From assembly GCA_011389735.1 (NCBI GenBank), contig JAABTS010000049.1, forward strand, positions 1 to 36,014: a stretch of DNA of 36,014 nucleotides, given 5' to 3'. This stretch comes from Desulfobacteraceae bacterium. Its GTDB lineage: Bacteria > Desulfobacterota > Desulfobacteria > Desulfobacterales > JAABTS01. The position numbers and the translations under genes were made by a program. Under the pieces are notes generated by a model, which was not told the origin of the DNA, did not search any database, and worked only from the letters and a program-made list of their open reading frames with translations. This document shows positions 13,881 through 24,067 of the stretch, one piece after another. Numbering within the stretch: the stretch's first letter is position 1; each line of letters begins with the position of its first letter.

Positions 13881-13965
13881 GAATCAGATTTAAAGTGTCA
13901 GGTCATTATCAGGTTTAACGTATCAGGTCATTTTTTAATTAATGTTTGTTAAGGAGGAAAATAAG

Positions 13966-21333: not shown

Positions 21334-21862
21334 TCGACCGCCTTCCTTTTCTCTGAAATGTTGACATCTTCAGGGCGTCCGGTGTAGCTCAGGCCCGGCT
21401 TCATTCAATCTTGAGCGGATCAGCGAAAACCGTCTTTTAACACGCTCCCTCCCCTTGCACAATAGCGTTCGTCAAAAACACCTTGAAAACAAACCGCCTC
21501 CTATAGACTTTCGGAGGGTTTAGTTTAAAAAACCGGCCGCTTATAATTCAAAATATACTATGAAATATAGGCATCCTTCATTTCTTGTTTACAGTTTCAT
21601 CAAAATCGGGATCGGGATCGGGATCGGGATCGTAATAATTCGATACCGATGCCGATTTCGATACCGGGTTTGGAAGTGTAAACTATTTATCAGCATTTAT
21701 GAAAGATGCCGAAATATACGGAAATTGTTTTCGTGTTTTTTCGTGTTTTTCGTTGTTCCGAACGTTTGTTGAAGCACGGGCGACTCGGATTTTCACGATA
21801 AAAATCAGATTCAATTTTAAGATTCAATTTTAAGGTTCGAACGAAAAATACCGGCGCTCAAC
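21334..21862. other. Non-coding intergenic region upstream of lpxK
   Basis: No convincing gene. It holds a CCTCC / GGAGG hairpin near 21510-21530, the ATCGGG hexamer array with its facing inverted partner (21605-21668), and short TTTTCGTG repeats around 21727-21750. A 70-codon frame at 21560-21772 is a low-complexity read-through of the hexamer array and is not accepted. Confidence 0.6.
21605..21668. repeat. ATCGGG tandem hexamer (about 4.7 copies) with facing inverted partner; possible G-quadruplex
   Basis: ATCGGG is repeated four times plus ATCG (21605-21632), giving four GGG tracts with 3-nt loops, the canonical G-quadruplex pattern. The stretch 21641-21668 is an imperfect complement (CGATACCGATGCCGATTTCG, then ATACCGG), so a long hairpin is the alternative fold. 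Confidence 0.75.
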
Positions 21863-21891
21863 TTGCAATCCCTTTTTTCACGGAATATAAT
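21863..21891 (+). promoter_or_regulatory. Putative sigma70 promoter for the CHAT-like gene
   Basis: TTGCAA (21863-21868), a 17-nt spacer, then a perfect TATAAT (21886-21891). The predicted start is near 21898, about 90 nt before the ATG. Confidence 0.6.
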
Positions 21892-21985: not shown

Positions 21986-24067
21986 ATGAACTACGACTCG
22001 GCTAAAAACGCCGAACCGGAAATGACGAATCATGTATCCCGGCTTGTATTTGAAGTTTATATGGAAAACGGCCGGATAAAAACCGATGTTTATGAAACGG
22101 GCAAAACCTTTCGAGCCGCCCGGGAAGCCCCTGGAACCGTTGATATGGTTCGGAAGCTGGGCGCTCATATTCGGGCGTGTACGTCCGGCGTCCCCATGGC
22201 GGAAACCGGAGCCAAAGCCTCCGGCGATCAATTTTTGCGCCTTTGCAAAGCTTTGGGTGACCAGGTGTTGCATCCGGGCGCGCGAGCCGTTCTCGCAATG
22301 AGCGCATCGGAGCATATCCTATTTCACATCGATCCTTCATTGGCCGATATTCCCTGGGAATTCATCTGCGACGAAGGCGGCTGTTTTTACCGGCGGTATG
22401 GCGCCGGCCGCCGCATCAGGTCCCTGATCCCGCTTAGAAGCCGTCACAACGATGTTTTGAAGGCGCCTGTAAAAATCTGGTTTTTATCCGCCGATTCAAT
22501 CCCGGATTCCGGTCCGGTCCCTCTGTTTTTGGAACAACTGGATAAATCCCGTTTTTCGATAACCATTTCGTCCGCCGGCGACCTGACGGTGAATGAGGCG
22601 ATATCCAAATTAAACGATTACGATCTGGTTCACTACAACGATATGACGCCGGCCGTGCCGGAAATTCCGGAACAGGCGGGGTGGCGATTTTCAGACGGGC
22701 GGCTAACGCCGGCGGCCGTCCGGAAAATAGGCGAACGCGCGAAAACGCCTTCCCTCGTGATTTCCAGCGGCCGGTCTGGAGCGCACATCGGCGGTTCCCT
22801 GGAAACGGCCGCAGCCTTCCTTTCGTCAGGCTCCGGGCATTACATCGCCGTACCGGCGTTATCGCCGTATCCGGAGATCGAACGGTTCTTTGAAGTTTTT
22901 TACAGGCGGTTCGCATCGGCTGAATCGATCGGCCGCGCTCTTCACGGCGCCGCAGTGGAAACCGGCGGAAAACCGGAAGAACCGTCCATGTTCGTTCCAT
23001 ACGCCATGTACGGCGATCCCTGCGCCCGCCGCCTGGAAACGCCCGCCGCCGGGCCCGAAAAAGCCCTGAAAACCCAACCGCAAGCTCAATTGGACATCCC
23101 TCCCCGGAACGAAAAACAGCCGGACATGTTTCCGAATAATGAATCGGAAACCTTATTCCAGGAAATGATGACCGGTATAGGAACTGAAAAAAAGTCAACA
23201 TTCGCTTACCGAAGCATAGGATCCGTATTGGGTTTGTTATTGGCCGCCTTTCTTTTGGCCTTGTGTTATTATCTGTTCGGGCCCCACAGAACTCCGGATC
23301 AAACGATGGACAGGGCGATTCGAGGCTATTCGGCTCAGTCCGCAATAAAACAAAACCAATTGGCGCCCCTGTTGGCGGATGTTCAGCGATTTAAGCAACG
23401 GCTGAACGGTTCGTCCGAATCAACAACCGAATACCCGGCGCCGGAAAAACGTCCCGCTATCGCCATCGACGTCTCTTCAGCGCGTGTCACCCCTTTAAGC
23501 GAAAGTGATTTCCTGGCGTCGGAAATTATCGGATCGGAATTAGTAAAAAAATCTCATATCAACCTCCTCGACCCCTTATCCCTGGCCAATATCATGGAAT
23601 CCATGGGGAACACCAACAACAGGAGACTTGAAAACGCATGGACGTCAAAGCTTGAACAGCTCAGGCTCGTCATTTTTTTGGAAATCGGGGGAAAAGGAGC
23701 CCGGCGCGGGGTATTTGCCCATCTGGCGGATATCCGAACAGGATCGATTCTCGAAACCGCGACCGCTCCCTTGATCAATGACGCCTCCATTGTCAAGGCC
23801 AGGGAAAGATTGGCCGGGCCGTTGTTGAAAACAATCAAAACGCTGTTTCCTCTGAAAGGAACCCTGATTGAAATAGTGGATAAGGACAATGCGGTCGTAA
23901 ATATCGGCGGCGAGCACGGACTCCGTTTTGAACAGCGCCTGACCAGCATGAACCAAAAAAACAGATTCGATATTATTTCCATGCAAAAAAACACCTGCGC
24001 GGTCGAACGAATCAAAGGGACGGATCCTTTGACCGAGGGGCTGAAAGTTATTCCGGTTCCCGATTGA
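21986..24067 (+). CDS. Membrane protein with a degenerate CHAT-like domain and a FlgT/CsgG-like C-terminal region
   Basis: 693 residues from the ATG at 21986 (AAGGA 9 nt upstream); a TTG at 21935 lies in the repeat arm and is less likely. Residues about 85-345 follow the CHAT (caspase-like) plan: DIPWEFICDEGGCFYRRYG (121-139), DYDLVHYNDM (211-220), SLVISSGRSG (256-265) and FFEVFYRRFASAESIGRALH. Active CHAT proteases have GHG after the strand and an N-x-C motif; here these are NDM and SSG, so both the catalytic His context and the Cys are gone. One membrane helix (about 412-432) follows a polar linker. Residues about 488-690, predicted periplasmic, resemble CsgG/FlgT-type domains (SESDFLASEIIGSELVKK; a final domain with AVVNIGGEHGLRFEQ). 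No partner gene is recognisable. A sensor or scaffold role is a guess. Confidence 0.7.
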   Translation: MNYDSAKNAEPEMTNHVSRLVFEVYMENGRIKTDVYETGKTFRAAREAPGTVDMVRKLGAHIRACTSGVPMAETGAKASGDQFLRLCKALGDQVLHPGARAVLAMSASEHILFHIDPSLADIPWEFICDEGGCFYRRYGAGRRIRSLIPLRSRHNDVLKAPVKIWFLSADSIPDSGPVPLFLEQLDKSRFSITISSAGDLTVNEAISKLNDYDLVHYNDMTPAVPEIPEQAGWRFSDGRLTPAAVRKIGERAKTPSLVISSGRSGAHIGGSLETAAAFLSSGSGHYIAVPALSPYPEIERFFEVFYRRFASAESIGRALHGAAVETGGKPEEPSMFVPYAMYGDPCARRLETPAAGPEKALKTQPQAQLDIPPRNEKQPDMFPNNESETLFQEMMTGIGTEKKSTFAYRSIGSVLGLLLAAFLLALCYYLFGPHRTPDQTMDRAIRGYSAQSAIKQNQLAPLLADVQRFKQRLNGSSESTTEYPAPEKRPAIAIDVSSARVTPLSESDFLASEIIGSELVKKSHINLLDPLSLANIMESMGNTNNRRLENAWTSKLEQLRLVIFLEIGGKGARRGVFAHLADIRTGSILETATAPLINDASIVKARERLAGPLLKTIKTLFPLKGTLIEIVDKDNAVVNIGGEHGLRFEQRLTSMNQKNRFDIISMQKNTCAVERIKGTDPLTEGLKVIPVPD

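Follow-up and report, generated by a model that had tools for sequence, protein, structure and literature searches.

A highly diverged, catalytically inactive by sequence and orphaned paralogue of a membrane-anchored CHAT protease family in a Desulfobacteraceae genome

The window analysed was a 36,014-nucleotide stretch of a Desulfobacteraceae genome, which carries on its forward strand a gene for a 693-residue protein (Table 1). The gene stands alone between lpxK on the opposite strand and the same-strand series ispA-dxs-tlyA-fusA; these names were assigned by reading the translations, by which lpxK would presumably be a lipid A gene and ispA and dxs isoprenoid genes. No sigma factor, zf-HC2 anti-sigma or lipoprotein gene was found among the neighbours of the gene, and no RNA families were found at the locus. 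All 693 codons are open, the codon-position GC pattern (a coding signature) and the hydropathy are normal, and a plausible ribosome-binding site could be recognized by eye at the start of the gene. The original prediction had given the gene its own promoter, TTGCAA-17-TATAAT, and a repeat-arm palindrome just after the start. Both hexamers are present, but the promoter scan revealed six sites of this kind where chance alone would give 3.3 ± 2.0, placing their frequency at chance level, while the palindrome was not recovered, as only trivial inverted repeats occur near the start codon. An array of ATCGGG hexamers on the upstream side (window 21605–21632) belongs to a genome-wide dispersed repeat; a 23-mer beginning with GATCGGG had 734 matches in the genome (up to two mismatches, overlaps counted) versus 0 in the reversed control, and copies of this repeat often lie near contig ends. 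A two-copy 25-base tandem repeat was also observed at window 13883–13932.

Table 1. Features of the window gene and its upstream region, in window coordinates.
Feature	Position	Strand	Basis
Promoter-like match TTGCAA-17-TATAAT	21863..21891	+	Hexamers present, not above chance
Whole gene: predicted inactive CHAT, membrane helix, FlgT/CsgG-like protein, 693 aa	21986..24067	+	ATG at 21986, stop ends 24067
Residues 20–84: N-terminal beta strands and helix of the family CHAT unit, weakly conserved in the window copy	22043..22237	+	Model, divergence
CHAT domain, residues 85–350, predicted catalytically dead	22238..23035	+	Pfam, fold
Met220 codon at the catalytic His position (family HFAGH, here HYNDM)	22643..22645	+	Alignments
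Arg263 codon at the catalytic Cys position (family FSNAC, here ISSGR)	22772..22774	+	Alignments
Disordered linker, residues 358–407	23057..23206	+	pLDDT about 40–47
Single membrane helix, residues 408–431	23207..23278	+	Hydropathy, model helix
Long post-membrane helix, residues 437–476	23294..23413	+	Model
CsgG/FlgO/FlgT-middle-like domain, residues 488–622	23447..23851	+	FlgT structural match, lipoprotein homology
FlgT C-terminal-like small barrel, residues 623–693	23852..24064	+	Model pLDDT about 95, FlgT alignment, weak FlgT_C match in paralogue

The AlphaFold2 model of the protein (54 sequences; mean pLDDT 80.3) revealed a caspase-type alpha/beta CHAT fold at residues 20–350, an isolated helix at 408–431 and two compact C-terminal domains at 488–693. 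Against the Pfam CHAT profile PF12770, with its cut-off of 24 bits, residues 1–350 scored 26.0 bits, above the cut-off, and the whole protein scored 23.2 bits, slightly below it. Among solved structures, comparison placed the CHAT fold of residues 1–350 closest to Csx29 of Craspase (Foldseek E 4e-9; VIA Z 22.3), to separase (VIA Z 22.1) and to the CHAT domain of DdvA (VIA Z 18.4); folds absent from the VIA list were not counted as negative evidence. Residues 488–693 matched FlgT (3w1e) with a Foldseek E of 3.8e-8 and a VIA Z of 11.2 at 8% identity over the match. FlgT and CsgG profiles gave no match to these residues and matched the relatives weakly only. The Csx29 profile NCBIfam NF041237 (cut-off 300 bits) gave no match to the window protein and reached 16.5 bits with an intact member of the family, and the defence-system library contained no match to the window protein. 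The CHAT-like N-terminal half, the single membrane helix and the FlgT/CsgG-like C-terminal region proposed in the original prediction could all be supported: the N-terminal half by Pfam, by the caspase fold of the model and by the three structural matches, the helix by hydropathy and model, and the C-terminal region by its FlgT-like fold, though not by sequence profiles. The order of CHAT domain, one membrane helix and FlgT/CsgG-like end is that of the family described below.

Single-sequence search revealed full-length homology to other proteins at E 1.6e-42 and 1.3e-33, and the best full-length matches in the samples of the order and class shared 24–25% identity and had an intact catalytic dyad. 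No orthologue of the window copy could be found among about 500 genomes of the order, and a single-protein pattern scan of genome contigs revealed no close orthologue; within the taxonomic family, in which the window genome was the only one examined, none was found. In the phylogenetic tree, the terminal branch of the window copy exceeded the median length by a factor of more than 20, and the tree gave no resolved placement for it. The membrane helix was seen in 41 of the 43 members of the family, the remaining two being truncated at contig ends; throughout the family, a membrane helix and an FlgT-like region belong to the normal architecture. A membrane-spanning pseudo-protease had been considered unusual, and the window copy does span the membrane, but the helix is common to the intact members. 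The idea that the membrane helix marks a pseudo-protease could be ruled out, since active family members carry the helix too.

Alignment against the homologues obtained from the whole-genome homology search, in which the dyad was not a criterion, revealed GH and Cys in the aligned columns of all 42, and among the aligned sequences the window copy alone carries NDM and SSGR at the dyad positions. This count rests on the homology-based set alone; a second contig scan used dyad-containing patterns, and its 79 loci are biased to intact members. Seeming exceptions in a later count were variants of the motif (FANAC) in which the Cys is retained. The replacement of the catalytic His and Cys, read in the original prediction as NDM and SSG, was thereby confirmed at Met220 and Arg263, and the dyads of the homologues align exactly at the positions that had been named as lost. 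The missing dyad is not universal, as each homologue examined retains it. Because all 42 homologues keep His and Cys in the same columns, the loss appears specific to the window copy, and on these alignments the window protein is a true pseudo-protease whose dyad loss is private to it. The window copy further lacks the conserved NPxGDLxxAxxEG loop and has a shortened loop behind the Cys position. The window copy retains 30 of 83 near-invariant columns and loses 53, against a family median of 96%; the retained residues include PWE, GR, GW and YGDP, which read as scaffold residues.

The intact relatives usually lie in an operon with the order lipoprotein, ECF-type sigma factor, soluble zf-HC2 protein and CHAT-TM-FlgT protein. 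Among 34 loci with a CHAT gene from the homology search and at least three upstream ORFs, a sigma or zf-HC2 gene adjoins the CHAT gene in 33, the sole exception being the window copy, and a lipoprotein gene is present at 31. The contig set from the pattern scan, which overlaps the homology-search set with several genomes common to both, revealed an adjoining sigma or zf-HC2 gene at 56 of 62 loci; the pattern-scan loci occur in Desulfobacterales, Omnitrophota and one Planctomycetales genome. The sigma factor of the operon matched TIGR02937 of the ECF superfamily (E 1.1e-21). The zf-HC2 protein, the anti-sigma candidate, had the HxxxCxxC motif in 29/29 sequences and no membrane helix. The lipoprotein consists of TPR, Ig-like and CsgG-like parts; 17 of 33 sequences have a lipobox pattern close to the start (some of the others may be cut or mis-started). 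Its C-terminal end is homologous to that of the CHAT protein (hhalign probability 98.2). The window genome itself contains three complete operons with intact dyads (L049, L050 and L051), and a search of this genome for an orphan partner found no zf-HC2 proteins beyond those of the three operons and generic ones. A survey of genome context, as proposed with the original prediction, thus revealed conserved sigma, anti-sigma and lipoprotein partners in the family which are absent beside the window copy. No description of the operon was found in the literature searched, though one may exist; only the Craspase papers were directly relevant.

Several other observations were made around these operons. 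Large C13-like (legumain/caspase clan) peptidase proteins adjoin two of the window-genome operons (L049:4539-7655 and L050:2-2044), and one of these proteins also has Ig-like repeats. Two relatives of the lipoprotein in the window genome, L186:3363-5360 (G000:C206:33362-35359) and L199:2-1516 (G000:C443), the latter cut by the contig end, occur without adjoining sigma, anti-sigma or CHAT genes. In the Omnitrophota loci and the one Planctomycetales genome (L143-L167), the CHAT gene follows the sigma and zf-HC2 genes, and a lipoprotein gene is mostly absent nearby.

Since the operon partners are a sigma factor and a candidate anti-sigma factor, the operons suggest a switch of gene expression that spans the cell envelope and is controlled by a protease. 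By analogy with Csx29, which cuts Csx30, the CHAT protease of the intact members probably cuts the anti-sigma factor. In these members, the CHAT domain would be cytoplasmic and the FlgT/CsgG-like part periplasmic, where it could meet the operon lipoprotein with its homologous end. An envelope signal, sensed or carried by the lipoprotein and the FlgT-like part, would be relayed through the membrane helix and activate the CHAT protease; cutting of the zf-HC2 protein would then release the sigma factor, following the Csx29/Csx30 logic. The signalling role across the inner membrane put forward in the original prediction is judged likely; that prediction did not include the sigma/anti-sigma operon to which the family is tied and which the window copy has lost. 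The window gene itself can be identified from its sequence as a highly diverged, catalytically inactive and orphaned paralogue of this membrane-anchored CHAT protease family. It is not expected to cut, while the fold, the membrane anchor and the periplasmic part appear to be kept; if functional at all, it would most likely be a non-cutting competitor or regulator, binding lipoproteins or anti-sigma factors that belong to the three active systems in the same cell.

The window copy may be such a binding decoy or regulator, or a decaying relic. Its periplasmic domains keep about 0.63–0.66 of the usual family identity versus 0.47 for the CHAT domain, and this milder divergence is weak evidence for the decoy role, as conservation rates may differ between domains. 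Decay is a serious prospect, though somewhat short of an even chance: a duplicated CHAT gene would have been split from its operon and be drifting, its frame still open by chance. The loss of both catalytic residues together with 53/83 near-invariant columns argues for this, and the very long branch, the lack of an orthologue among the roughly 500 genomes from the order and the loss of the sigma, anti-sigma and lipoprotein neighbours fit it as well. However, an open frame of 693 codons with normal codon-position GC and a ribosome-binding site plausible by eye, and a model well formed across both domains, point the other way, and long neutral drift would hardly be expected to yield protein divergence of this extent without any stop.

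It is improbable that the protein has taken on a new structural or sensing function in the envelope that has nothing to do with sigma control, such as tethering an outer-envelope assembly with the CHAT domain as a cytoplasmic binding platform only. The FlgT/CsgG-like part is kept and has diverged less than the CHAT domain, and the gene lies between lpxK and the isoprenoid genes (as named above); however, no conserved neighbours support such a role, and active family members have the same periplasmic part. It is very improbable that the protein is still an enzyme with an alternative catalytic pair: His216 is kept and His267 is close in sequence to the lost Cys position, but the alignment shows no Cys near the site, and the NPxGDLxxAxxEG deletion and the shortened post-Cys loop described above also argue against it. 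The reading preferred here, an inactive orphaned paralogue of an anti-sigma-cutting CHAT protease that is possibly a decoy or regulator of the three active systems, is given about an even chance of being correct. The further proposal of a non-CRISPR Craspase-like switch in Desulfobacterales and Omnitrophota, in which a membrane-anchored CHAT protease would sense the envelope and cut a soluble zinc-finger anti-sigma factor, with the window copy as a regulator that is itself inactive and dedicated to the three active copies, is doubtful.

The sigma/anti-sigma operon of the family is of larger interest than the single window gene. The Craspase CRISPR system provides a known case of sigma factor control by a CHAT protein, and a widespread operon of membrane CHAT protein, anti-sigma factor and sigma factor, found in the order to which Desulfonema belongs, is a candidate source type for a Craspase-like module. 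The operon makes control of sigma factors by caspase-clan proteases directly testable outside CRISPR, and the predicted dead window copy offers a natural control for functions of the fold without cutting.

Among known systems, Csx29 of Craspase, the TPR-CHAT protease of type III-E CRISPR, cuts Csx30, the inhibitor of CASP-sigma (PMC10028731). It resembles the window family in the CHAT fold (Z 22.3) and the intact family in having sigma factor and inhibitor genes in the same locus; the studied Craspase system is from Desulfonema ishimotonii, and members of the window family occur in Desulfonema magnum. However, Csx29 is joined to TPR, works with Cas7-11 and is active, whereas the window copy is without the dyad, and the family has a membrane helix and an FlgT-like part with no CRISPR effector seen. 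The inhibitor candidate in the family is a zf-HC2 protein, where Craspase has Csx30. DdvA (PDB 8rot and 8rw5, titled 'transmembrane anti-sigma factor DdvA') likewise links CHAT to a membrane protein and to ECF sigma control, but combines the anti-sigma function and CHAT in one chain, whereas the window family has separate proteins and an FlgT-like far end. The fold of residues 488–693 resembles FlgT (3w1e) and CsgG/FlgO/TolB-type domains; it differs from FlgT in its 8% identity, and no flagellar genes were seen near the window gene, the domain being common to the operon lipoprotein instead. Bacterial pseudo-orthocaspases (PMC6426788) are similar to the window protein in having a caspase fold with both catalytic residues replaced, but they are members of the p20/C14 family and fall into conserved clades, whereas the window protein is of the CHAT type and stands as a singleton.
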